64,000 nt of DNA, taken from positions 620,001 to 684,000 of the forward strand of contig NZ_CP056080.1 of the NCBI RefSeq assembly GCF_014217215.1, given 5' to 3'. This document shows positions 5,602 through 18,771 of the stretch, in pieces. Under the pieces are notes generated by a model that saw nothing but the letters and a program-made list of their open reading frames with translations, was not told where the DNA came from and did not search any database. Origin of the DNA: Rothia nasimurium (GTDB taxonomy: Bacteria > Actinomycetota > Actinomycetes > Actinomycetales > Micrococcaceae). Position numbers and translations under genes: made by a program. How positions within the stretch are numbered: the stretch's first letter is position 1; every line of letters starts with the position of its first letter.

Positions 5602-6831
5602 CTAGTGGGGCAGGGGGAGGTAGCTAACAGTACTGCCTGCTACCGCACCAGCCGGCGGGACGAGGGCGAGGGCGTCGGCTGTGGCGAAGGAGGTGAGCAT
5701 GTGGGATTGGGTTTTGGGCAGGGGAGTGAGAGCTGCCTCGTGGGGCGAGGGGCTGAGGCTGGCAGGTAGCAGGCGCAGGTCGTGTTTGCGGTAGCCGGGT
5801 ACCTCATGGGTGAGGACGCCGGTGGGCAGCTCGTCTAGGGGGGCTGCGGTGGCGCCGGTGAGCCAGGGATTGAGGTAGGAGTAGAGGGCGGTGTAGGCCG
5901 CAAGGGGGTTGCCGGGCAGGCCCAGGACGAGCGGTGCTGCCAGGTTGCTGCTGGCCGGTAGGTGGGCGGCTAGGGCCGGGTGGCCGGGGCGGATGGCTAC
6001 CGATTCGAAGAGGTAGCTGGCCTGAAGGTCGTGGAGGGCTCGGCGTACCCAGTCGGCGGTGGAGGTTGAGGAGCCGCCGGTGATGAGGAGTAGGTCGGCG
6101 CGGGTTGTGGTGAGCCAGTCGGTGAGTTTGGCTTTGCTATCGGGTAGTCGGCAGGTACTGGTGACTGCCGCCCCGAGATCTTCGATGATGGAGGGGAAGG
6201 CCAGAGAATAGGCGTCACGCACCTGGCCGGGGCCGGGGAGACCTGCGGTAATAATTTCGTTGCCGGTGTAGGCGATAGCTACGGTGGGGCAGGCGGTTAC
6301 GGTCAGGGTATCGAGACCGAGGGTGGCAAGGGCGCCGAGATGCCGGGTATTAATGCAGGTGCCCGCAGCAAGTACGCTGCTGCCTGCGGGGAGCTCTTCG
6401 CCCGCCCGGCGGATGTCGGCCCCCGGGCTGGGGTAGCCCTGCCCACTAAAAAAGCGGGGATCGGGGCTGAGCGTGTTGCCTTCTCGCAGGCCGTGTTCCT
6501 GGCGGATGACAGCTTCAGTACCGGGGGGAAGCAGCCCGCCGGTCAGAATGGGGGTTGCCTGGCCGGGGGCGAGGGGGAGGGTTTTGCGGTGGATGTTCTC
6601 CCCGTCGGCAGCTGGCGGGTGGGTCAGTACCTGCCAGGGCGGGGCCCCGGCGGTGGCGTAGCCGTCCATAGCTGAGGAATCGTAGTGGGGAACGGGCAGC
6701 AGGGCACGGGCATCACGGGTTAGGGTTCTGCCGACGGCTTCAGCGAGGGGAATCTCTTCTTCGGTAAGGGTAAGGGCCTCCCCTGCCCGGTGCAGGAGCT
6801 GCCTGGCCTGGTGCCAGCTGGTGTGGTGCAC
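5602..6831 (-). CDS. moeA: Molybdopterin molybdotransferase MoeA (paralogue 1)
   Basis: MoeA inserts molybdate into adenylylated molybdopterin, the last common step of molybdenum cofactor synthesis. The 409-residue protein shows HYDSSAMDGYA (about residues 49-59), a central MoCF-binding region with ITGGSSTS, and GLPGNPLAAYTAL with a C-terminal domain IV. The GTG start follows AAGGAGG. It is the last gene of a leftward run moaA-moaD-mobA-moeA with gaps of 11-16 bases, so it is probably co-transcribed. A second moeA lies at 10708. Confidence 0.93.
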   Translation of the reverse strand: MHHTSWHQARQLLHRAGEALTLTEEEIPLAEAVGRTLTRDARALLPVPHYDSSAMDGYATAGAPPWQVLTHPPAADGENIHRKTLPLAPGQATPILTGGLLPPGTEAVIRQEHGLREGNTLSPDPRFFSGQGYPSPGADIRRAGEELPAGSSVLAAGTCINTRHLGALATLGLDTLTVTACPTVAIAYTGNEIITAGLPGPGQVRDAYSLAFPSIIEDLGAAVTSTCRLPDSKAKLTDWLTTTRADLLLITGGSSTSTADWVRRALHDLQASYLFESVAIRPGHPALAAHLPASSNLAAPLVLGLPGNPLAAYTALYSYLNPWLTGATAAPLDELPTGVLTHEVPGYRKHDLRLLPASLSPSPHEAALTPLPKTQSHMLTSFATADALALVPPAGAVAGSTVSYLPLPH

Positions 6832-7469: not shown

Positions 7470-7751
7470 CTAGCCACCGGCAAAGGGCGGAAGTACGTCC
7501 AGGCGCTTAGCCTGTGTCAGGAGTGCCGGGGCATCGAGCTGCTCGTCGGTGGCGGCAACCCCGTCGACGAGGAAGGTGCAGCGCGGCAGAATATCGGCCA
7601 GGGTCTGGCCCGAGGGAGTGCTACCGGTGAATTCTTCTGCCAGGTAGGTACGAATCCCGGCAAGAGTTGGGGCAGGTAGCTGGGCTGGATCGAGGGTGAG
7701 GCTGGGGCGGCCTGCTGCCGCCCGGGCTGCGGCGAAAAAGTTAATCTGCAT
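7470..7751 (-). CDS. moaD: Molybdopterin synthase sulfur-carrier subunit MoaD
   Basis: A 93-residue ubiquitin-fold protein that starts MQINFFAAARAAAG and ends in the diagnostic Gly-Gly (VLPPFAGG), the site of adenylylation and thiocarboxylation by MoeB. It supplies sulfur to precursor Z together with MoaE (13123). It lies 16 bases downstream of moaA in the same leftward unit. Confidence 0.9.
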   Translation of the reverse strand: MQINFFAAARAAAGRPSLTLDPAQLPAPTLAGIRTYLAEEFTGSTPSGQTLADILPRCTFLVDGVAATDEQLDAPALLTQAKRLDVLPPFAGG

Positions 7752-7767
7752 AGAAAGTCCTTGAATC

Positions 7768-8901
7768 TTAGCCGCCGATGGCGCTCATTGATCGAGTAGG
7801 TTGGGTGAAATCGGGGGTATCGAAGCCGACAGTGTCCTTGCCGTGGGCCTTGGGCTTGGCCCACATGGCTCCGCGCCAGATCTGGGCCAGTTCAGCATCG
7901 CTGGCCCCGCCGCGCAGGGCACCCATAAGGTCGGTCTCGGTCAGGGAGAAGAGGCAGGACCGCACCTTGCCGTCGGCGGTAATGCGGGTCCGGGTGCAGG
8001 CTGAGCAGAAGGGCTCGGTGACCGAGGCGATAATGCCCACCTGACCTAGGGGGTCTGCTGTACCGGCGTGACCGAGCGGGTAGACGTCCCAGAGCGCTGC
8101 GGGTGAGGCCCCGCGCGGACGCCCGTGGGGCAGCAGGTCGTAGTGGTCGGCTAGGCGCTGGCGAATCTGCTCGGCGGTGATGGTGCCTTCGCGCGTCCAG
8201 TTGTGGTCGGCGTCCAGGGGCATCTGCTCGATAAAACGGAGCTGGTAGCCCCCTTCCAGCGCCCAGGCAAGGAGCTCGTGGCCCTGGGTGTCGTTGACCC
8301 CGGCCATGAGGACAGCATTAATTTTGAGGGGGGTGAGCCCGGCTGCTGCTGCCGCCTCAATTCCTGTGAGCACGGAGGCCAGCTTGTCTCTGCGGGTGAG
8401 CTGGGCAAAGGTTTCGGGGCAGATGGTATCGAGGGAGACGTTCACCCGGTTGAGCCCGGCTGCTGCCAGGGCGTCCACTTTTTTCTCAAGCCCTATGCCG
8501 TTGGTGGTCAGGGCGATGGGCAGGTGGGGGTGGTCGGCGCGGACGGCTGCGATGATGTCGGTCAGATCGGCTCGTACCAGGGGCTCGCCGCCGGTGAAGC
8601 GTACCTCTTCTATCCCTAGATCCTGTACGCCCACCCGTACCAGGCGGACCACCTCATCGAGGGTGAGAAGCTGGCTGCCCGGGAGCCAGTTGAGCCCCTC
8701 GGCAGGCATGCAGTAGACGCAGCGCAGGTTGCACTTGTCCATGAGCGAGATGCGCAGGTCTGTGGCGGTTCTACCCCAGCGGTCAGCGAGAGGCCCGCTG
8801 GTGGGCGCCCCCTGCCGGGTGGCGGCAGCCAGACCACCGGTGACCACGGGAATCGTAGAACCCAGGGGAACCGGGGGAACGGGGGCGGAGGATTGGGGCA
8901 T
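7768..8901 (-). CDS. moaA: GTP 3',8-cyclase MoaA
   Basis: This radical-SAM enzyme converts GTP to 3',8-cyclo-GTP, the first step of molybdopterin synthesis. The N-terminal cluster motif CNLRCVYC (Cys59, 63 and 66 counted from the GTG at 8907) is visible, as is the C-terminal GTP-binding cluster CSACTRTRI...VRSC. The terminal Gly-Gly (SAIGG) needed for activity is present. The start is ambiguous between GTG 8907 and ATG 8901; ATG is chosen although the ribosome-binding site is weak. The N-terminal 45 residues are a low-complexity extension. It is divergent from modA. Confidence 0.93.
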   Translation of the reverse strand: MPQSSAPVPPVPLGSTIPVVTGGLAAATRQGAPTSGPLADRWGRTATDLRISLMDKCNLRCVYCMPAEGLNWLPGSQLLTLDEVVRLVRVGVQDLGIEEVRFTGGEPLVRADLTDIIAAVRADHPHLPIALTTNGIGLEKKVDALAAAGLNRVNVSLDTICPETFAQLTRRDKLASVLTGIEAAAAAGLTPLKINAVLMAGVNDTQGHELLAWALEGGYQLRFIEQMPLDADHNWTREGTITAEQIRQRLADHYDLLPHGRPRGASPAALWDVYPLGHAGTADPLGQVGIIASVTEPFCSACTRTRITADGKVRSCLFSLTETDLMGALRGGASDAELAQIWRGAMWAKPKAHGKDTVGFDTPDFTQPTRSMSAIGG

Positions 8902-8912
8902 ACCCACACTTT

Positions 8913-8933
8913 CACAAATCTTAATCAGTATTT
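8913..8933 (-). promoter_or_regulatory. Shared AT-rich motif before moaA (copy 1)
   Basis: On the minus strand this region begins AAATACTGATTAA and ends TTTGTG. The moaC promoter region (12100-12119) has the same 13-base core and the same TTTGTG end, and a related core occurs before narG. It lies in the moaA-modA divergent region. The function is unknown; a common regulator site or promoter element is inferred. Confidence 0.4.
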
Positions 8934-9043
8934 CAGATGTAATATTTAGCCTATCGAAACCGGGTGAAGAACACCACCTGGCTCTACACTAATCTATAGA
9001 AATAAACCAGCCCAGGCTACTGTTACCCGCGCCAGGAGGACTC

Positions 9044-9835
9044 GTGCGCCGCCCCATCCTAGCTATCCTGCCCCTCGTTCTTGCCCTTGCGGCCTGCGCC
9101 CCCGGCTCACCGGCGTCCGCCCCCGAGAGCAGCCAGGGGAGCATCGGTGCGGACGCCCCCGTGCAGGTCTTTGCGGCGGCCTCCCTGGGAGCTGTGGGCG
9201 ATGAACTCATCGCAGCCTACCGCCAAGAAAACCCGCAGGCCGACATCACCGCCACCTACGCGGGGTCATCCCAGCTAATAACCCAGATGACCGAAGGGGC
9301 CACCCCCGACCTGCTGATTACCGCCGATAGCACCACCATGACCCAGGCTATCGACACGGTTGAAGAACTGGCTGGTTCCACCCCTGAAACTATCGCCACC
9401 AACGCCCTGGTGCTGGCCACCGCCCCCGGCAACCCCGCCGCCGTCGATAGCGTGGATGACCTGGCTGCAAGCGGCGTAATGACCGCAATCTGCGCCCAGG
9501 AAGTACCCTGCGGACGCCTGGCCCACCAGGAGCTCAGCCGCCAGGGAATCACCCCTGTGACCTCCACCGAAGAAGCAAATGTCTCGGCGGTCGCCACCAA
9601 GGTGGCTACCGGCCAGGCAGATGCCGGCTTTATCTACTCCACCGACGCCACCGCCCTCTCGGCCACCGAAGATATCACCGTCATCGACCTGCCCGACCTA
9701 GAACGCAACGCCTACCCCCTTGCCCTGACCGCCACAGGCCAGGCCAAGGAAAGCGCCCAAGATTTCGCCAACTGGCTCGTCACCTCTGAAAAAGCTGCCC
9801 AGATTCTCACTGCCTACGGCTTCGAACCAGCCTAA
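9044..9835 (+). CDS. modA: Molybdate ABC transporter substrate-binding lipoprotein ModA
   Basis: The 263-residue precursor has a lipoprotein signal peptide with lipobox LAAC (Cys18). The mature domain is a type II periplasmic-binding fold with ModA landmarks VFAAASLGAVGDEL and YAGSSQLITQMTEGATPDLLITAD, where the Ser residues contact the oxyanion. It captures molybdate (or tungstate) outside the membrane and delivers it to ModB. The GTG start has GCCAGGAGGA upstream. It is the first gene of the rightward molybdenum unit, divergent from moaA, and modB follows after 9 bases. Confidence 0.92.
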   Translation: MRRPILAILPLVLALAACAPGSPASAPESSQGSIGADAPVQVFAAASLGAVGDELIAAYRQENPQADITATYAGSSQLITQMTEGATPDLLITADSTTMTQAIDTVEELAGSTPETIATNALVLATAPGNPAAVDSVDDLAASGVMTAICAQEVPCGRLAHQELSRQGITPVTSTEEANVSAVATKVATGQADAGFIYSTDATALSATEDITVIDLPDLERNAYPLALTATGQAKESAQDFANWLVTSEKAAQILTAYGFEPA

Positions 9836-9844
9836 ACTAGGACT

Positions 9845-10711
9845 ATGAGCACACCCGGCCCCGCACCCGCCCCGCCCCGGCCCGGCGGTAGCCCCTTTAC
9901 GTCCGTACCGGCCCACGCTGTGCTCCCCACCCTGCTCACCCTGGCCCTGATTGCCGGGCCCCTGCTGGCCCTTCTGGTGCGGACTCCCTGGGGGAGCCTA
10001 CCCCAGCTTCTGACGGAACCGGCTGCCCTGGGTGCGGTGAGGCTCTCGGTGCTCACAGCCCTGACGACTACCCTTATCTCGGCCCTGCTGGGCACCCCCA
10101 CCGCCCTGGTACTTGCCACGGTACTCGAAAGATCACGGGCCCGCCGCCTGACCTGGCCCCTCTACGGGCTGATTTATACCCCTATCATTTTCTCCCCGGT
10201 GGTCTCGGGTCTAGCCCTGCTCTTCTTCTGGGGTAGACGCGGACTGTTCGGATCCTGGCTCGATACCGCCGGTATCTCGGTGGCCTACACCCCGCTGGCT
10301 GTGGTGCTGGCTCAAACTTTTGTTGCCCTGCCCTTCTTCGTAGCTACCCTGGTCACCACCCTGCGGGCCCTGCCACCAGAGTATGCCGAAATCGCTCGGC
10401 TTGAGGGGGCCAGCCCCGCGGAGGTCACCACCCGGGTGCTGCTCCCGCTGGCCACCCCCGGCCTGCTGACGGCGGCCGTCCTGACCTTCGCCCGTGCCCT
10501 GGGCGAATACGGGGCAACCGTTACCTTCGCCGGAAATATCGAGGGCATCACCCGAACCATCCCCCTGGCCATTGAGCTGGCTCTGAGCTCCAACCGCATG
10601 GAGGCAGCCCTGGGCGCAGCCCTCATGCTTATTGCCCTCTACCTCAGCCTGCTCGCCGCCGGAGCCCTGGCCCTCTGGCTGGGACGACTGAAAGGAGGCC
10701 GCCCCTCATGA
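9845..10711 (+). CDS. modB: Molybdate ABC transporter permease ModB
   Basis: The 288-residue membrane protein has about six hydrophobic segments and the permease EAA loop (EYAEIARLEGASPAEVTTRVLLPLATPGL, about residues 180-208) that docks the ATPase. The C-terminal part with LGEYGATVTFAGN is typical of ModB/CysU permeases. The stop overlaps the following moeA start by four bases (ATGA). The expected ATPase gene modC is not next to it nor elsewhere in the window, so the pump must use an ATPase encoded elsewhere. Confidence 0.92.
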   Translation: MSTPGPAPAPPRPGGSPFTSVPAHAVLPTLLTLALIAGPLLALLVRTPWGSLPQLLTEPAALGAVRLSVLTALTTTLISALLGTPTALVLATVLERSRARRLTWPLYGLIYTPIIFSPVVSGLALLFFWGRRGLFGSWLDTAGISVAYTPLAVVLAQTFVALPFFVATLVTTLRALPPEYAEIARLEGASPAEVTTRVLLPLATPGLLTAAVLTFARALGEYGATVTFAGNIEGITRTIPLAIELALSSNRMEAALGAALMLIALYLSLLAAGALALWLGRLKGGRPS

Positions 10712-12060
10712 CGCTGCCTACAGAAACCCCTGCAGAAAGCCTTGCCCACCTGCTTCCCTCCGGCTCCCGCCTTCAGCCGCAGGTCTATGCTTCCTGTGTG
10801 CGCGACCTGGTGGCTGCCACCGTTACCCGCACCCCCTATAGCCTGCCCCTGGGGGAGGCTGCCGGGGCTCAGCTCGCTGAACCCCTCTACGCGCTAGCCC
10901 CCCAGCCCTCCTTCGCCAACTCCCAGATGGACGGTTACGCCCTCACCAGCGCTGCCGCCCGGGCAGCCCAGCGGGTTTTTCGGGTGGGACAGGACGTTCC
11001 TGCTGGGGCCACCGGGGAGGGGCTGCCGGTGAGCGATACCCTGGTTTACCCGGTTATGACGGGGGCTCCGCTGCCGGACGGCTACACCACCGTTATCCCC
11101 GTCGAGCGCACCAGCCCTGTGGCCGGAGAGACAGACGCTGCGGGCTTCGTAGCCGAGGGCGGGCAGGTTGAGGTTCCCCCGGCTGCCCCCGGTGCTTTCG
11201 TACGGGCTGTGGGTGAGGACGTTGCCGCAGGCCAGCTCCTAGCAGAGGACGGCAGTCGCCTGACCCCGGCCCTCATCGGCGCCCTGTCCGCCCAGGGAAT
11301 CGCGAGCGTGCCGGTCTACCGACCCCTTCGGGTGCTGGTGGTGACAGGTGGCGACGAGGTCGCTGGGGCGGGCCGGGCGCCTGCTACCGGGCAGATTTTT
11401 GACGCCAACGGCCCGGTGCTGGCGGCCCTGCTTCATCAGGACGGCTGCACCACCGACCACCTACCCATCGGGGACTCGGTAGAAGATTTCTGTACGGCCC
11501 TGCAAGGTGCCCTAGCCCATCGGGTGCCCGACCTCATCGTGACCAGCGGCGGTATCAGCCACGGTAAATACGAGGTGGTGCGTCTGGGGCTGGCGGCTCT
11601 GGCTACTGCTCCTGCCGGTGGGGAGCGGGTGAGGGCTAGCTGGTTTGGCCATATTGCCCAGCAGCCCGGCGGCCCCCAAGGGCTGGCCCTACTCGAGGCC
11701 CCCGACGGCAGGGTGCTGCCGGTACTCTGCCTTCCGGGCAACCCGGTGAGCACCCTCATTAGCTACCACCTGCTCCTGCGCCCTGCCCTGGCCCACCTGG
11801 CAGCAGAAGATGAGCCGGACGCCTACGGCCAGCTGGTGCTCGATGCCCCCATCGCGGCACCGGCTGGAAAAACCCAGTACCGCCGCGCCCGCCTCACTCG
11901 GCAGGCTCGGGCGGATGGGAGCGTCCTCACCCTGCTGACTCCGGACGCCGCAACCGGCTCTCACCTGCTCCTGCAGGCAGCCCGCGCCGATGCCCTGGTG
12001 GAACTGGAACCCGGGCGCACCTACCGCGGCGGTGAACCGGTGCGGTATATTGCCCTGTGA
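10708..12060 (+). CDS. moeA: Molybdopterin molybdotransferase MoeA (paralogue 2)
   Basis: A second, 450-residue MoeA with SFANSQMDGYAL (about residues 69-80), VTSGGISHGKYEVV and LPGNPVSTLISYHLLLRP. It is only distantly similar to the 409-residue copy at 5602-6831. Actinobacteria often carry several moeA genes, and here one copy is in each divergent arm. Its start is translationally coupled to modB. An 81-base gap containing the AT-rich motif separates it from moaC, which may mark a new promoter. Confidence 0.92.
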   Translation: MTLPTETPAESLAHLLPSGSRLQPQVYASCVRDLVAATVTRTPYSLPLGEAAGAQLAEPLYALAPQPSFANSQMDGYALTSAAARAAQRVFRVGQDVPAGATGEGLPVSDTLVYPVMTGAPLPDGYTTVIPVERTSPVAGETDAAGFVAEGGQVEVPPAAPGAFVRAVGEDVAAGQLLAEDGSRLTPALIGALSAQGIASVPVYRPLRVLVVTGGDEVAGAGRAPATGQIFDANGPVLAALLHQDGCTTDHLPIGDSVEDFCTALQGALAHRVPDLIVTSGGISHGKYEVVRLGLAALATAPAGGERVRASWFGHIAQQPGGPQGLALLEAPDGRVLPVLCLPGNPVSTLISYHLLLRPALAHLAAEDEPDAYGQLVLDAPIAAPAGKTQYRRARLTRQARADGSVLTLLTPDAATGSHLLLQAARADALVELEPGRTYRGGEPVRYIAL

Positions 12061-12099
12061 GGTGCAGATAGACACCCTTGCCAGCAAATCACGTATAGT

Positions 12100-12119
12100 A
12101 AATACTGATTAATTTTGTG
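12100..12119 (+). promoter_or_regulatory. Shared AT-rich motif before moaC (copy 2)
   Basis: The region begins AAATACTGATTAA and ends TTTGTG, almost identical to the copy upstream of moaA on the opposite strand. It lies about 25 bases before the moaC ATG. Its presence in two separate molybdenum cofactor promoter regions suggests a common control. Confidence 0.4.
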
Positions 12120-12141
12120 TTGAGAGGCTAAGCCAAGGACC

Positions 12142-12633
12142 ATGACCGCCCCCACCCCCAACGGAAACCTCACCCACGTGCGTGCCGACGGCAGCGCCCA
12201 CATGGTTGACGTCACCGAAAAGAACGAAACTACCCGCACTGCTATAGCCGAAGGCTACGTCATCACCCGGGCGGACGTCATCGACAAAATCTTCGACGCC
12301 GACCTGCCCAAGGGGGACGCCCTGCCCGTTGCCCGCGTCGCCGGCATCATGGCAGCCAAGAAAACCCCCGACATCATCCCGCTCTGCCACCCCCTACCCC
12401 TAGGCAAAATCACCATCGACTTCGAACGCCACCCCGACCGCGTCCGCATCGAAGCCCTGGTCAAAACCCGCGGCGTCACCGGCGTAGAAATGGAAGCCCT
12501 CAGCGCGGTCTCCGGCGCAGCCCTCACCGTCTACGACATGATCAAGGCCGTCGATAAGCAGGCCACTATCACCGGCCTACGCGTCTTGGAAAAAACCGGC
12601 GGAAAATCCGGCGACTGGAAGGTGGAGCAGTGA
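12142..12633 (+). CDS. moaC: Cyclic pyranopterin monophosphate synthase MoaC
   Basis: The 163-residue MoaC converts 3',8-cyclo-GTP to cPMP. Conserved blocks are visible: MVDVTEKNETTRTA near the N-terminus, IPLCHPLPL, and TGVEMEALSAVSGAALTVYDM, ending in the active-site Lys loop LEKTGGKSG. It is the first of three overlapping genes (moaC, moaB/mog and moaE). The start is ATG with AAGGAC upstream. Length is normal for the family. Confidence 0.95.
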   Translation: MTAPTPNGNLTHVRADGSAHMVDVTEKNETTRTAIAEGYVITRADVIDKIFDADLPKGDALPVARVAGIMAAKKTPDIIPLCHPLPLGKITIDFERHPDRVRIEALVKTRGVTGVEMEALSAVSGAALTVYDMIKAVDKQATITGLRVLEKTGGKSGDWKVEQ

Positions 12634-13133
12634 GCAGCAACTACACCCTGCCCGAGAACCGCACCGGCCTAGTGATCGTGGCCTCGACCCGGGCCGCCCG
12701 CGGAATCTACGAAGACAAATCTGGCCCCCTGGCCGTAGCCTGGCTGCGCGACCAAGGCTTCGACACCCCCGACGCGGTCGTCGTAGCGGACGCCGACGTC
12801 CCCGCCTACATCGACCGGCTAGTCGCTGCCGGTAACCTACCCACCTTCATCCTGACCAGCGGTGGAACCGGCCTCAACTCAGACGACACAACCGTCGAAG
12901 CCGTGCGCCCCCACCTCACCAAAGAAGTCCCCGGCATCATGCACGCCTTCTGGAATCAGGGCCTCAAAAATACCCCCGCCGCCGTCCTCTCCCGCGGAAT
13001 CGCCGGCGTCATCGGCACCAGCTTCATCATGACCCTGCCCGGCTCCACCGGAGGAGTCAAGGACGGCTGCGCCGTACTCGAACCCCTCGTCACCCACATC
13101 TGCCGCCAGCTAGAGGACTACCATGACCACTAA
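12630..13133 (+). CDS. mog: Molybdopterin adenylyltransferase MoaB/MogA
   Basis: The 167-residue protein adenylylates molybdopterin to prepare it for molybdate insertion by MoeA. The MoCF fold is shown by VIVASTRAARGIYEDKSGPLAVAWL, ILTSGGTGLNSDDTT and TLPGSTGGVKDG. The GTG start overlaps the moaC stop (GTGA). MoaB and MogA belong to the same family and cannot be separated by inspection. Confidence 0.9.
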   Translation: MSSNYTLPENRTGLVIVASTRAARGIYEDKSGPLAVAWLRDQGFDTPDAVVVADADVPAYIDRLVAAGNLPTFILTSGGTGLNSDDTTVEAVRPHLTKEVPGIMHAFWNQGLKNTPAAVLSRGIAGVIGTSFIMTLPGSTGGVKDGCAVLEPLVTHICRQLEDYHDH

Positions 13134-13644
13134 CCCCACAAGCCCTCACACCACCGGCCCCTCACCGGCCAACCCCTACGCCGGGCGTCCGCTCGAACCG
13201 GTAGATTCCACAGTTGTACACGCCTCCATCACCGAAGAGCCCCTCGAACCCCTCCTCGCTGCCGCCAAGCAGGCAACCATGACCCGCGACATGGGCGCCC
13301 TCGTCGTCTTCGACGGCATCGTACGCGACCACGATCACGGCCAGCCGGTAGCCGCCCTAGCCTACTCCGCCCACCCCCAGGCATCCGATTACCTGGAAGA
13401 AACCCTGAACTCGGTGGCACACGAAATCCCCGGCGTGCGCCTCTGGGCAGCCCACCGCATCGGCCCCATCCCCATCGGAGAATCAGCCCTCACCGTACTT
13501 GCCGCTGCCGCCCACCGCGGCACAGCCTTCACCGCCTGCTCCCTGGCCGCCGACCGCATCAAGGCTGAGGTGCCCATCTGGAAAGAGCAAGAACTCACCG
13601 ACGGCAGCGTGCAGTGGGTAGGAATCGATACGCCTACCGGCTAA
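13123..13644 (+). CDS. moaE: Molybdopterin synthase catalytic subunit MoaE
   Basis: The 173-residue MoaE transfers sulfur from MoaD thiocarboxylate to cPMP, making molybdopterin. Visible are MGALVVFDGIVRDHDHG (about residues 57-73), HRIGPIPIGE, and the active-site Lys region DRIKAEVPIWKEQ. About 40 N-terminal residues rich in Pro, Ser and Thr extend beyond the usual start; an ATG further in would shorten it, but this ATG overlaps mog in the way typical of the operon. Confidence 0.93.
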   Translation: MTTNPTSPHTTGPSPANPYAGRPLEPVDSTVVHASITEEPLEPLLAAAKQATMTRDMGALVVFDGIVRDHDHGQPVAALAYSAHPQASDYLEETLNSVAHEIPGVRLWAAHRIGPIPIGESALTVLAAAAHRGTAFTACSLAADRIKAEVPIWKEQELTDGSVQWVGIDTPTG

Positions 13645-13708
13645 GGCTTTCGAGTCGAAGGTATGAAATGGCAAGTGGGCCCAGCCCTACTCTAGAGAAA
13701 GACTTCCT

Positions 13709-14938
13709 ATGACCTCTGAACTAACCTCGCTGGCCTACCAGCTCTACGGGCGGCAGATGATCCTGCCGGAGCTGGGGCAGAAGGGGCAGGAAAAACTGAG
13801 CGCGGCAACGGTTGCGGTGCTGGGCGCTGGCGGGCTGGGCTCACCGGCCCTGCTCTACCTGGCAGGGGCCGGTGTTGGGCGCATTATCGTGATCGATGAT
13901 GACACGGTAGAAACCTCTAACCTGCACCGCCAGGTGGTTCACTCCTACGCCCGGGTCGGGGCTTCCAAGGCAGATTCAGCAGCCCAGACCCTGCGTGAAC
14001 TTAACCCTCTGGTTGCGGTCGAAACCATCAAGGAACGCCTGACCGACGCCAACGCTGAAAAACTGCTGGCCGGGGTAGATGTGCTGGTGGATGGCTCCGA
14101 CAACTTCCCCACCCGCTACACAGCCTCCCGCACCGCAGCAGCCCTGGGCATTCCCCACGTCTGGGGCGCAATCCTCGGCTTTGACGCCCAAATGAGCGTC
14201 TTTTGGGCAGGGCACGGGCCGGTCTACGAAGACCTCTACCCGGCTGAGCCGGAACCCGGCTCGGTGCCTAACTGTGCCACCGCCGGTGTCATCGGCGCGC
14301 TCGCCGGTGTAATCGGCACGGCCATGGCCATGGAAACTATCAAACTGCTGACCGGTATCGGCCAGCCTCTCATAGGTGAAGTGGGCTACTACACCGGCCT
14401 GACCGGCCGCTGGGAGTACATCCCCCTGGTCGCATCGTCCACCCGCGCCACTCCTGCATCTGCTTCCGGTGCGGACGCCAGTCATCAGGTATCGGGGGAG
14501 GGGCAGGCGGCTGCATCTGCCCGTCCTGCCGAGCCTGCCCGTCCTGTTGAATCAGTGCATCCACCTGCTACTGACTGGGAGCCTGCTACCGCCGAGCCTG
14601 ACCAGTACGGCATGGAAGTCACCTGGGCCGATATTGCGGGTTCCGCCTATTTTGAAGGGGTGCCCCTGATTGACGTGCGGGAGCCGCACGAGCACCGGGC
14701 ACTAGCCGTGCCGGGTAGTTTCAACCTGCCGCTTTCCCTGATTCGCCAAGCAGCCAGCGATACCAGTCTGCAACCTGCTATCGATACCGTGCTGCCCAGC
14801 CATCGGGGGCGGTACGCCCTCTACTGTGCAGCCGGGGTGCGCTCGCTTGAGGCTCTGAACCTGCTCACCGCCGCCGGTTTTAGTGACCTTTACAGTGTTG
14901 AAGGTGGCATTGACGCCTGGCTAAAAACGCAGAGCTAG
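13709..14938 (+). CDS. moeB: MoeB-type sulfur-carrier adenylyltransferase fused to a rhodanese domain
   Basis: The 409-residue fusion has an E1-like ThiF/MoeB domain (LGAGGLGSPALLYLAGAGVG, SNLHRQVVH and VDGSDNFPTRY) to about residue 245. A roughly 50-residue Ala/Pro/Ser/Glu linker follows. The C-terminal rhodanese domain has the active loop YCAAGVRS, whose Cys carries persulfide. It adenylylates the MoaD C-terminus and supplies sulfur; it may also serve ThiS or CysO-like carriers, because such MoeBR proteins are often shared. It lies 64 bases after moaE and 110 before narG. Confidence 0.9.
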   Translation: MTSELTSLAYQLYGRQMILPELGQKGQEKLSAATVAVLGAGGLGSPALLYLAGAGVGRIIVIDDDTVETSNLHRQVVHSYARVGASKADSAAQTLRELNPLVAVETIKERLTDANAEKLLAGVDVLVDGSDNFPTRYTASRTAAALGIPHVWGAILGFDAQMSVFWAGHGPVYEDLYPAEPEPGSVPNCATAGVIGALAGVIGTAMAMETIKLLTGIGQPLIGEVGYYTGLTGRWEYIPLVASSTRATPASASGADASHQVSGEGQAAASARPAEPARPVESVHPPATDWEPATAEPDQYGMEVTWADIAGSAYFEGVPLIDVREPHEHRALAVPGSFNLPLSLIRQAASDTSLQPAIDTVLPSHRGRYALYCAAGVRSLEALNLLTAAGFSDLYSVEGGIDAWLKTQS

Positions 14939-14997
14939 GGCTTCTGTCTGCCCCGACCCGCTAAATATATGTATGTACGTATGATGCTTAATTAGCG

Positions 14998-15017
14998 AAA
15001 ATTTTTATTCGGTATTT
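14998..15017 (-). promoter_or_regulatory. Related AT-rich motif before narG (copy 3)
   Basis: On the minus strand this region begins AAATACCGAATAA, matching 11 of 13 bases of the moaA and moaC core. It overlaps the region where the narG -35 box is expected. AT-richness of the region makes chance similarity possible. Confidence 0.3.
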
Positions 15018-15041
15018 ATTGCGCAATATTTTGGGTAAACT
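15017..15041 (+). promoter_or_regulatory. Putative narG promoter with palindromic operator
   Basis: A perfect 12-bp palindrome TATTGCGCAATA (15017-15028) precedes TAAACT (15036-15041), which ends 7 bases before the ATG at 15049. No ribosome-binding site is visible, so the narG mRNA may be leaderless. The palindrome would occupy the core promoter spacer and could be a repressor site. Flanking repeats CGCTAA (14959-14964) and TTAGCG (14992-14997) are also present. Confidence 0.45.
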
Positions 15042-15048
15042 GGTGCCC

Positions 15049-18000
15049 ATGACACAGCAGGCATCACACACACCTGGGCCCGACGGGCCGCTCACTGACA
15101 AGCTCATCAAATTTGGCAAATTCTTCACCAAGTGGGACGAAACCGACGACGGCCGCGCAGCCTTCCTCAAAGGCGGCCGCGCAGGCGACGTTTTCTACCG
15201 CAACCGCTGGAGCCATGACAAGGTTGTCCGCTCCACCCACGGCGTCAACTGCACCGGCTCATGCTCCTGGCAGGTCTTCGTCAAAGACGGCGTAATCACC
15301 TGGGAAGCCCAGGCCACCGACTATCCCACCGTCGGCCCCGACCGCCCCGAGTACGAACCGCGCGGCTGCCCCCGTGGCGCGGCTTTCTCCTGGTACACCT
15401 ACTCACCGACCCGCGTGAAGTACCCCTACATCCGCGGTGTACTGCTGGAAATGTACCGCGAAGCCCGCGCCCGTCTGGGAGACCCCGTCGAAGCCTGGGC
15501 CTCCATTGTCTCGGACCCCTCCAAGCGCCGTGCCTACACCGCCGCTCGCGGTAAGGGCGGCCTGGTGCGCGGCACCTGGGCAGAAGCCCTAGAAATGGTG
15601 GCCGCCGCCCAGATTCACACCATTAGGACCTACGGCCCCGACCGCAACATCGGCTTCTCACCCATTCCGGCTAAGTCCATGGTGTCCCACGCCTCCGGTG
15701 CCCGCTACATCGAGCTCATGGGCGGTGTAATGACCAGCTTCTACGACTGGTACGCCGACCTGCCCGTAGCTTCACCCCAGGTCTTTGGCGACCAGACCGA
15801 TGTACGCGAGTCCGGTGACTGGTGGGACGCCACCTACCTGATGATGTGGGGCTCCAACATTCCGGTGACCCGCACCCCCGATGCCCACTGGATGGCCGAG
15901 GTTCGCTACCGTGGCACCAAGGTTGTCTCTGTCTCCCCGGACTACGCCGATAACACCAAGTTCGCCGACGAATGGCTACCCGCCCAGCCCGGCACCGATG
16001 CCGCTCTGGCTATGGCCATGGGCCACGTCATTCTCAAAGAGAACTTTGTGGACCAGCGGGTGGAGTTCTTTGAGGACTACACCAGCACCTACACCGACTT
16101 CCCCTTCCTGGTCACTCTGGAAACCCGTGAAGACGGTAGCAAGGTGCCCGCCAAGTTCCTGACCGCCGCAGACCTGGCTGCTCACCGCGAGGTTGCCGAT
16201 GCCGCCTTCAAGACTGCCCTCTTCAACCGCGAAACCGGTGAAGTTGTTGTGCCCAACGGTTCCATGGGCTACCGCTACAACGCTGAGGACGAGGGTAAGT
16301 GGAACCTTGACCTACAGGGGGTTAGGCCTGCGCTCTCTATCCTGGATTTGCCCCAGGGTACCCTGACCAGTGCCGCTGAAATCAAGCTCCCCGCTTTCGA
16401 CGAGCCCTCAGGTCGAGGCAAGGTCGTGACCCGTGGCGTTCCCACCGTTATTGTGGAGGGCCACGAAGTCACCACCGTCTTTGACCTCATGCTGGCCCAG
16501 TACGGCGTGGGCCGCCCCTCCCTGCCCGGTCACTGGGCAGAGAGCTTTGAGGACGCGGACACCCAGTACACTCCCGCCTGGCAGGAGGCTATTACCTCCG
16601 TACCCGCCGAAGCCGTGATTCGCACCGCCCGCGAGTTCGCCCAGAACTCCATCGACTCGGGTGGCCGCACCATGATTATCATGGGTGCCGGTATCTGCCA
16701 GTGGTACCACGGCGACACCACCTACCGCGCGATTCTAGCCCTGCTCATGATGTGCGGTGCCGAGGGCCGTAACGGCGGTGGCTGGGCCCACTACGTGGGA
16801 CAGGAGAAAGCCCGTCCCATTACCGGGTGGGCACACATGGCTAACGCCCTGGACTGGTACCGCCCGCCCCGTACCCAGGCCGGCACCTCCTTCTGGTACA
16901 TGCACACCGACCAGTTCCGTCAGGACGGCTACTCCGCCGACTCGCTCCAGTCGCCGCTGGCTAAGGGCGAACTGGCCGGGGTGCACACCGCTGACCTGTT
17001 GGCTCGCGCCGTGCGCATGGGCTGGACCCCCTTCTACCCGCAGTTCCCCGAGAACTCCCTGGATCTGGCCGATAAGGGCGCAGAAGCAACGGAGGCCGGT
17101 ACCGCCGAGTCACCCGCTGACTACGTAGCCCAGCGCCTGAACTCCGGGGACCTGGAGTTCTCCGTTGAGGACGCTGACGCACCGGCTAACTGGCCCCGCA
17201 CCCTCATGCTCTGGCGTAATAACCTGCTGGGCTCATCGGCTAAGGGTGAGCAGTACTTCCTGCGCCACCTGCTGGGTAATGAGAACGCCAACATCAGCAA
17301 GGACGCCGAGAACCGCCCCGATGAGGTACGTTGGCAGGACGATGCACCGGTTGGCAAGCTGGATCTGCTGGTCACCACCGACTTCCGCATGACCTCATCG
17401 ACCCTGTCATCGGATGTCGTTTTCCCCGCCGCTACCTGGTACGAGAAACACGACATCTCCTCGACCGACATGCACCCCTACATTCACGCCTTCTCACCGG
17501 CTATTAACCCGCCCTGGGAAACCAAGACCGACCACCAGATCTTCAAGGAACTGGCCTACGTCTTCTCCAAGCTGGCTAAGAAGCACCTGGGCGTGCGCAA
17601 GGACCTGGTCTCTGTGCCCCTCCAGCACGATACCCCCGGCCAGATTGCCCAGCCCGGCGGTCACGCCCCCGACTGGAAGAACCAGAACATCCAGGGTATT
17701 CCGGGCAAGAACATGCCGGTCTTTGCCGTGGTGGAACGTGACTACCCGGCCCTCTACGACATGTACACCTCGGTCGGCCCCCTGCTTTCTAAGCTGGGAA
17801 CAACCACCAAGTTCGTGACCGTCGATGTGAATGACGAGCTGGCAACCCTAGCCCAAGAACACGGTGTCATGGGTAGCGGTAAGGGCGCGGGTCTTCCCGC
17901 CCTGGATACCGACGTCAAGCTGGCTGATACTATCTTGGCGCTTTCGGGTACCTCCAACGGCCCGGTTGCTCTCAAGGGCTTCAAGGCCCTGGAGAAGCGG

Positions 18001-18771
18001 GTGGGCAAAAAGATGCACCACCTGGCCGAGGGCAACGAAGAGAAGCGCATCCGCTTCCGCGACACCCAGGACCGCCCGGTTCCCGTCTTCACCTCACCCG
18101 AATGGTCAGGTTCAGAGACAGGTGGCCGCCGCTACGCCCCCTTCACCCTGAACATTGAGCAGCTCAAGCCCTTCCACACCCTGACCGGTCGTATGCACTT
18201 CTTCCTAGACCACGACTGGATGAGCGAGATGGGGGAGCAGCTCCCGGTCTACCGCCCGCCGCTGGATATGCACAACCTCTTCGGCGAGCCCGAACTGGGC
18301 GAAACCGGCGACCTCTCCGTTGCCGTTCGCTACGTCACCGTCCACAACAAGTGGGCTATCCACTCCTCCTACCACGACAACCTCTACATGCAGACGCTCT
18401 CACGCGGCGGCACCCACGCCTGGATGAGCCCGCAGGATGCAGCAAAGATTGGCGTGAAAGACCACGACTGGATTGAGTGCGAAAACACCAACGGTGTCTT
18501 TGTGGGACGCGCGGTGGTCTCCCACCGTATGCCCGAGGGTGTTGTCTACGTGCACCACGCCCAGGAGCGCCTGGTGAACGTGCCCAAGGCTGAACGCACC
18601 GGCAAGCGCGGGGGTATCCACAACTCGGTCACCCGCATCATGGTCAAACCCACCCACATTATCGGTGGCTATGCCCACCAGGCCTATGCCTTCAACTACC
18701 TGGGACCCACCGGTAACCAGCGAGATATTGTTTCCAGAATCCGCCGCCGCAAGCAGGAGGTAACCTACTAA
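15049..18771 (+). CDS. narG: Respiratory nitrate reductase alpha subunit NarG
   Basis: The 1240-residue catalytic subunit reduces nitrate to nitrite with quinol electrons, using Mo-bis-MGD and the FS0 cluster. Near the N-terminus STHGVNCTGSCSWQVFVKDG carries the His/Cys ligands of FS0. YDWYADLPVASPQ holds the Asp that ligates molybdenum. GRMHFFLDHDWM and GPTGNQRD are typical of the C-terminus. ATG 15049 is chosen over an upstream TTG at 15019, which would extend through the putative -10 box. It is the first gene of narGHJI, and narH overlaps its stop by one base. Confidence 0.96.
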   Translation: MTQQASHTPGPDGPLTDKLIKFGKFFTKWDETDDGRAAFLKGGRAGDVFYRNRWSHDKVVRSTHGVNCTGSCSWQVFVKDGVITWEAQATDYPTVGPDRPEYEPRGCPRGAAFSWYTYSPTRVKYPYIRGVLLEMYREARARLGDPVEAWASIVSDPSKRRAYTAARGKGGLVRGTWAEALEMVAAAQIHTIRTYGPDRNIGFSPIPAKSMVSHASGARYIELMGGVMTSFYDWYADLPVASPQVFGDQTDVRESGDWWDATYLMMWGSNIPVTRTPDAHWMAEVRYRGTKVVSVSPDYADNTKFADEWLPAQPGTDAALAMAMGHVILKENFVDQRVEFFEDYTSTYTDFPFLVTLETREDGSKVPAKFLTAADLAAHREVADAAFKTALFNRETGEVVVPNGSMGYRYNAEDEGKWNLDLQGVRPALSILDLPQGTLTSAAEIKLPAFDEPSGRGKVVTRGVPTVIVEGHEVTTVFDLMLAQYGVGRPSLPGHWAESFEDADTQYTPAWQEAITSVPAEAVIRTAREFAQNSIDSGGRTMIIMGAGICQWYHGDTTYRAILALLMMCGAEGRNGGGWAHYVGQEKARPITGWAHMANALDWYRPPRTQAGTSFWYMHTDQFRQDGYSADSLQSPLAKGELAGVHTADLLARAVRMGWTPFYPQFPENSLDLADKGAEATEAGTAESPADYVAQRLNSGDLEFSVEDADAPANWPRTLMLWRNNLLGSSAKGEQYFLRHLLGNENANISKDAENRPDEVRWQDDAPVGKLDLLVTTDFRMTSSTLSSDVVFPAATWYEKHDISSTDMHPYIHAFSPAINPPWETKTDHQIFKELAYVFSKLAKKHLGVRKDLVSVPLQHDTPGQIAQPGGHAPDWKNQNIQGIPGKNMPVFAVVERDYPALYDMYTSVGPLLSKLGTTTKFVTVDVNDELATLAQEHGVMGSGKGAGLPALDTDVKLADTILALSGTSNGPVALKGFKALEKRVGKKMHHLAEGNEEKRIRFRDTQDRPVPVFTSPEWSGSETGGRRYAPFTLNIEQLKPFHTLTGRMHFFLDHDWMSEMGEQLPVYRPPLDMHNLFGEPELGETGDLSVAVRYVTVHNKWAIHSSYHDNLYMQTLSRGGTHAWMSPQDAAKIGVKDHDWIECENTNGVFVGRAVVSHRMPEGVVYVHHAQERLVNVPKAERTGKRGGIHNSVTRIMVKPTHIIGGYAHQAYAFNYLGPTGNQRDIVSRIRRRKQEVTY

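Follow-up and report, generated by a model that had tools for sequence, protein, structure and literature searches.

A 23-bp NsrR-type dyad at the moaA, moaC and narG promoters of Rothia points to nitric oxide control of nitrate respiration

Which regulator could join the genes of nitrate reductase to those that supply its molybdenum cofactor in Rothia? Rothia reduce nitrate in the mouth and airways, and their output of nitrite and nitric oxide (NO) bears on the NO balance of the host. We analyzed a window of 64,000 nt (positions 620,001 to 684,000 of contig NZ_CP056080.1, Rothia nasimurium) from a genome of 2.53 Mb, here called G000; other G and L numbers denote genomes and loci of the comparison set. 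The 13 closest relatives of narG that carry a name are all from Rothia (74-93% identity), placing the window in this genus. Its cluster runs moaA, modA, modB, moeA, moaC, mogA/moaB, moaE, moeB/Z, narG, narH, narJ, narI and narK, with narH assigned by position. The original prediction held that an AT-rich motif with the 13-mer AAATACYGAWTAA is shared by the promoters of moaA, moaC and narG, is followed by TTTGTG at moaA and moaC, and could mark an unrecognised regulator. We find that the element is very probably an operator of NsrR, an NO-sensing repressor under which narGHJIK, moaA, moaC, nirK, a P450 gene and hmp (flavohaemoglobin) would stand together.

A 23-bp dyad at moaA, moaC and narG

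Exact copies of the 13-mer lie upstream of all three genes, at 8921-8933 (-), 12100-12112 (+) and 15005-15017 (-), and the whole genome holds no others. At up to one mismatch the window contains those three alone, whereas 100 dinucleotide shuffles gave 0.02 on average and 1 at most. Genome-wide, one mismatch adds three matches, and at up to two mismatches there are 75 matches versus 87 for the reversed control, which is no enrichment. TTTGTG is present at moaA (after GA) and at moaC (after T), is absent at narG and is unconserved; it lies outside the conserved element, and we rejected it as a component of the motif. The 13-mer is thus a real shared element, but what is conserved is a dyad of 23 bp (roughly AATTRGYAT-N5-ATRCYAATT), of which AAATACYGAWTAA is the stronger half. 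The dyads at moaA, moaC and narG each contain 11 letters of their own 13-mer (Table 1).

The inverted repeat is visible in an alignment of narG and nirK promoters, for example as AATTGCAT-TATCC-ATGCAAATT at nirK of G003 and as TTTGGTAT-TTTTA-ATACCTATT at narG of G026. Its symmetry reached p ≤ 0.05 against letter shuffles at 5 of 19 nirK sites and 10 of 18 narG sites. Taken singly, the narG, moaA and moaC sites of G000 were not significant in this comparison, and the case therefore does not rest on symmetry.

Two matrices were used to score the dyad. The four-gene matrix was built from 17 hmp, 15 of 27 nirK, 21 nirB and 3 P450 promoters, omitting eight nirK regions without a visible dyad and four near-duplicates. 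It was seeded from sites already seen and included the nirK, nirB and P450 promoters of G000, and the hmp-only matrix therefore serves as the independent test. This second matrix came from an unsupervised palindromic Gibbs sampler that was given 12 hmp promoters from other Rothia genomes and no nar or moa sequence, its width of 23 and its symmetry having been set by us after dyads had been seen. The sampler recovered the dyad at 289 bits in 2 of 25 runs, the next best solution reaching 214. Its input came from 23 Rothia nsrR-hmp loci, from which we excluded five near-duplicates, our own genome, and five loci (L175, L188, L194, L196 and L202) in which nsrR and hmp are far apart and no box is evident. 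When these eleven were scored afterwards, the six close ones gave 25.0-28.3 and the other five 5.2-11.9.

Table 1. Coordinates of dyads, candidate -10 hexamers and genes (window positions unless a contig or locus is given; ranks and scores of dyads by the hmp-only matrix unless stated, shuffles being dinucleotide shuffles of the intergenic region)
Feature	Position	Strand	Remarks
NsrR-type dyad, moaA promoter	8923..8945		rank 2 of 63,978, score 12.9; reached by 8 of 2000 intergenic shuffles
NsrR-type dyad, moaC promoter	12088..12110		rank 1 of 63,978, score 16.3; 0 of 2000 shuffles
NsrR-type dyad, narG promoter	15007..15029		rank 4 of 63,978, score 9.0; 86 of 2000 shuffles
Possible second, weaker narG dyad	14970..14992		37 bp upstream of main narG dyad; 5.8 with four-gene matrix
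Candidate moaA -10, TAGGCT	8948..8953	-	2 nt upstream of dyad; CTAGKCTAAATAT-like block common to several Rothia
Candidate moaC -10, TATAGT	12094..12099	+	inside dyad; from sequence
Candidate narG -10, TAAACT	15036..15041	+	TANNNT-like hexamers there in relatives; by eye
moaA (GTP 3',8-cyclase)	7768..8901	-	TIGR02666 E 2.9e-105
moaC	12142..12633	+	TIGR00581 E 3.2e-59
narG, leading gene of narGHJIK	15049..18771	+	full-length Rothia relatives 74-93% identical
nsrR	G000:C1:2142977-2143354	-	directly upstream of hmp (L184)
P450 gene of G000	L281:5237-6403	-	site at 6427

The third place in the window, 7743-7765 (9.2 with the hmp-only matrix), lies between the 3′ end of moaA and the next gene and is probably due to chance. 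The upstream narG dyad is stronger in relatives by the same matrix (10.3 and 11.1, at 9922, in L041 and L047; 11.9 in G015), and narG may be under tandem boxes.

Conservation and distribution of the dyad

We scanned 26 Rothia narG loci with the hmp-only matrix (27 narG matches less the fragment in G031, a genome that is 65% complete and has no Rrf2 match over the cut-off). In 25 of them the highest score among roughly 6,690 positions falls in the promoter of narG. Among background windows, 1 of 597 scores at least 8. In G015 the best match is the second, upstream dyad, which is still in the narG promoter. The sole miss, G022, is also the sole one of the 26 genomes without an Rrf2 gene over the cut-off, and its narG promoter carries a faint GTATTT-like remnant.

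The looser pattern AAATACYRAWTAA has 37 exact matches in 21 of the 35 genomes of the genus, compared to 8 for the reversed control. By coordinates, 17 belong to narG, 9 to moaC, 3 to moaA (two by spacing only) and 1 to nirK, the last directly before the gene in G034; one match (G015:C107) is unplaced and six lie elsewhere. These six comprise three within other genes (L126, L133 and L137), one upstream of a PTS gene (L125) and two unassigned. The product of the G034 gene is a copper nitrite reductase with a membrane anchor (TIGR02376 E 8.1e-45, under the model's own cut-off).

At moaA and moaC the 13-mer is confined to a close clade. In R. endophytica and a relative (L039 and L040) it is missing from both promoters even with one mismatch; the moaA, moaC and narG dyads, written in different letters, nevertheless outscore every other position in 23.7 kb. 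The moaC dyad is identical in 9 of 30 Rothia loci including our own (30 of the 32 moaC matches were counted), and a different dyad scoring 14.4 occurs in two more. A score of at least 8 was reached at moaC in 11 of these 30 loci, and at moaA in 7 of the 12 Rothia loci that carry a name. One further box, scoring 13.2 at 16991 in L051, stands immediately before narK and suggests separate NsrR control of this transporter.

Could the three sites be a chance likeness of AT-rich intergenic DNA, or recent copies of one promoter in another? The promoters are AT-rich, and the narG dyad taken alone is not extreme against shuffled sequence (Table 1). Set against this are the three exact matches in 2.53 Mb, the narG promoter as best position in all but one locus when background windows so rarely reach 8, and the retention of the dyad with different letters in other species. 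Moreover, the window holds 4 positions scoring at least 9, and block-shuffled windows averaged 0.7 (maximum 3 in 20). Chance or copying is contradicted by conservation already and is barely credible. The element could have been unconserved, or as frequent elsewhere; it is kept in relatives and is rarer in the background.

The dyad also stands before hmp, nirK and a P450 gene elsewhere in the genome. The hmp promoter of G000, just downstream of nsrR, contains AACTAGTAT-TCTGT-ATGCTAGAT with a score of 25.2, and dyads were present at hmp in 18 of the 23 Rothia loci read, our own included. A search with the dyad pattern across the genus gave matches 3′ of an Rrf2 gene in at least six genomes; those of G002, G006 and G008, the three inspected, lie just before hmp. 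In G000 the nirK dyad scores 17.3, and the box of the P450 gene adjoining nirK scores 20.7; a strong box precedes the P450 gene in the three Rothia read (G000, G003 and G006). Compared to solved structures, none of the best 60 of 444 matches of this P450 was called an NO reductase, all being P450s of other names. A box precedes nirB in G006 and G017. Because the same dyad precedes hmp and the gene of the copper enzyme NirK, oxygen or molybdenum as direct signal is unsupported. From the proposed nitrate, oxygen or molybdenum regulator we therefore keep the shared site, whose regulator most likely responds to nitrogen oxides.

Other promoters with the dyad were seen as well. The R. mucilaginosa-type genome G012 and G005 both have near-perfect dyads upstream of a flavodoxin-like gene and of a small cupin gene, and G012 alone has one at cydA (cytochrome bd) as well (L284, L287-L290 for the two genomes). 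Dyads without a clear link to NO occur in L285, L286, L291 and L297 and at G000:291394, where the gene of a CAP/LGFP secreted protein follows.

Outside the genus we read an analyst-chosen sample of 30 of 67 narG records (named Kocuria, Arthrobacter and others) that includes those with narG boxes. A strong NsrR (E 3.5e-27 or better) is encoded in 17 of these genomes; among the 13 nsrR-negative ones, three have faint matches (E 3.4e-5 to 1.4e-4). In all 17 loci, each of roughly 3.4 kb, hmp adjoins nsrR. The hmp-only matrix places its highest score of the locus 19-52 bp before hmp in 16 of them (scores 5.0-27.6), L343 being the miss. The hmp box of L333, AACTAGCATTTTCAATGCTAGTT, is near-perfect. 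Boxes scoring at least 8 at narG were found in 5 of the 17 nsrR-positive genomes (three of them Kocuria) versus none of the 13 nsrR-negative ones, a difference with Fisher p 0.052 in a sample that we chose. Since the other 12 nsrR-positive genomes have no such narG box, NsrR control of narG is no general rule of the family.

NsrR as the candidate regulator

G000 has a single Rrf2 gene over the cut-off, which is also the sole match at E up to 0.001 (PF02082, 96.2 bits versus a cut-off of 30). The best solved relative of its product is NsrR of Streptomyces coelicolor (5n07/7b0c; residues 1-143, E 2.7e-33), and the alignment keeps Asp8 and the three cluster Cys, which are the cluster ligands of NsrR (PMC5411485). 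DNA contacts of the S. coelicolor protein are retained at T29, H42, K45 and R60. Of 24 Rothia Rrf2 loci read, 23 have hmp next to the Rrf2 gene (six other Rrf2 loci are outside this count), and a dyad of 11-1-11 architecture with AA/TT ends is found at hmp, including that of G000. The original prediction matched the site to no named actinobacterial one and suggested that its regulator could be unrecognised; instead, the evidence favours NsrR, for which an operator of 23 bp has been defined in the actinobacterium S. coelicolor (PMC4432287).

Several observations weigh against NsrR control. In the protein, T41, T48 and H52, which contact the DNA backbone in S. coelicolor NsrR, are changed, and the NCBIfam NsrR model gives 78.5 bits versus a cut-off of 182 (S. 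coelicolor NsrR itself was not scored). Among the sites, the narG dyad of G000 is weak alone, being matched by 86 of 2000 shuffles and itself having 3 of 10 positions paired, and the nirB of this genome scores just 4.8. The moaC box is present in just 11 of 30 Rothia loci, no dyad is seen by eye in 8 of 27 nirK upstream regions, and the best nsrR-hmp matches are weak or displaced (5.2-11.9) in G001, G005, G012, G013 and G033. The nsrR promoter has no consistent box in the 20 loci scanned, single matches being 11.9 in L188, 10.0 in L198 and 7.0 in L196, whereas nsrR autoregulation is described as conserved in Streptomyces (PMC4432287); we have dropped autoregulation for Rothia. In G001 the nsrR frame is cut short, yet the narG promoter scores 9.9. 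Besides this early-ending frame, nirK matches in several pieces in the same genome (L202), where the system may be decaying or the assembly may contain errors.

Other dyads precede nsrR in some genomes. TTGGTT-N7-AACCAA is found in L197 (G007) and a variant of it in L195 (G006), and the close clade has AAGGTT-N8-AACCTT. In L197 nothing in the 210 nt before nsrR scores above -0.5 and we rejected its dyad as the same box; these sequences are possibly the site of another regulator.

A different protein, ArnR-like or unlike any known, might bind the dyad at hmp, nar, nirK and moa, with the linkage to nsrR being incidental. ArnR of Corynebacterium does respond to NO, controlling narKGHJI as well as hmp (PMC12343034), nsrR itself is without a consistent box, and NsrR binding is a step that we infer. 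Yet the box lies between nsrR and hmp in several genera, the boxes at narG outside Rothia fell among nsrR-positive genomes as described above, and no regulator gene was seen within the syntenic moa-nar cluster, which is bordered beyond moeA2 by a LacI-family gene of the sugar-regulator type. The placement typical of ArnR, immediately after the nar operon, was not observed: in the window gcvP follows narK, as it does by label in 8 of the 10 Rothia loci examined (with one open reading frame between in L048; unlabelled frames were judged by eye). We consider another regulator improbable, and NsrR remains the preferred candidate.

The position of the dyad relative to candidate -10 hexamers, picked by eye from the sequence, is that expected of a repressor. 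Such a hexamer lies inside the dyad at moaC and hmp and overlaps its edge at nirK; the narG dyad covers the -35 and spacer region, its end lying 6 nt short of the candidate -10. This geometry bears on whether the dyad could be the site of a CRP/FNR-type or NarL-type anaerobic activator, making the switch one of oxygen or nitrate in place of NO. The genes and the AT-rich half-sites suit anaerobic respiration, and the narG site is about where an activator could sit, but the moaA, moaC, nirK and hmp sites are at or downstream of the candidate -10. An FNR-like CRP activator was rejected, as no CRP-family gene tracks narG among the 35 genomes (NarL-type regulators were not searched for). Among the matches listed, each of the 35 has one strong CRP-family match (66-70 bits) regardless of narG, and further strong copies (56-64 bits) are found only in G000, G002, G006 and G020. 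An anaerobic activator is thus very unlikely. A molybdenum cofactor riboswitch was rejected as well: the leaders gave no such Rfam match, and in positions 8000-16000 the one match with E up to 1 was below threshold and irrelevant.

Under NsrR control, a dimer of this Rrf2-family protein carrying a [4Fe-4S] cluster would occupy the 23-bp dyad when NO is absent and block transcription. Repression by the cluster form and release by NO are established for NsrR (PMC4432287, PMC9338935), and we infer the same for Rothia. Once nitrite is reduced to NO, nitrosylation of the cluster would take NsrR off the DNA, and narGHJIK, moaA and moaC (two steps of molybdenum-cofactor synthesis), nirK, the P450 gene and hmp would be induced together. 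As NirK makes NO from nitrite, this could form a self-reinforcing loop, capped by Hmp, which removes NO. More tentatively, and somewhat short of a probable reading, NO may be the main switch of nitrate respiration in Rothia and some Kocuria, rather than oxygen or nitrate acting through FNR or NarL. Nitrate reductase, cofactor supply, NirK and Hmp would then form an NsrR-gated positive-feedback circuit able to flip on once NO appears, reached independently of corynebacterial ArnR, for which a similar NO-loop logic has been argued (PMC12343034).

Comparison with known nitric oxide regulators

NsrR, the architecture of its operator and its hmp and nirK targets are already known (PMC1274295, PMC4432287). 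The main text of the 2005 NsrR reconstruction does not contain moaA or narG, and among the papers listed in a search of the open literature none reports, by title or opening of its abstract, an NsrR regulon over nar or moa genes in Rothia, Arthrobacter or Kocuria. The regulator thus appears to come from a family already recognised, and its enlarged regulon is one that we have not found in print. If true, this would explain how nitrate respiration and the synthesis of the molybdenum cofactor are coupled to NO in Rothia, would widen the role of actinobacterial NsrR from detoxification alone to respiratory control, and would make the 23-bp box usable for annotation in Micrococcaceae.

Among the closest known systems is NsrR of S. 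coelicolor, likewise an Rrf2 repressor with Asp8 and three Cys and with hmp as a target (PMC4432287, PMC9338935). Its operator is also 23 bp long, with two 11-bp inverted repeats around a 1-bp centre and AA/TT ends that are needed (PMC4432287), and the operator half ATCTACCAATT has TACCAATT in common, and in register, with the nirK site of G026. The two differ in reach: in the available text of these reports S. coelicolor NsrR binds hmpA1, hmpA2 and nsrR only (PMC4432287, PMC9338935), whereas the Rothia box is found at narG, moaA, moaC, nirK and the P450 gene. Neisseria likewise has nirK/aniA under NsrR, with the molybdenum-cofactor gene mobA listed among the NsrR-regulated genes of the gonococcus (PMC1274295, PMC3032703). 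It belongs to a different phylum, however, FNR and NarQ-NarP also act there, and the available text of the two reports does not name nitrate reductase, moaA or moaC as NsrR targets (PMC1274295, PMC3032703). ArnR of C. glutamicum works in a similar way: an Fe-S repressor sensitive to NO, it links nitrate reductase with hmp (PMC12343034). ArnR has no significant homology to Rrf2 proteins and is encoded beside narKGHJI (PMC12343034); the Rothia candidate, in contrast, belongs to the Rrf2 family and is encoded beside hmp.

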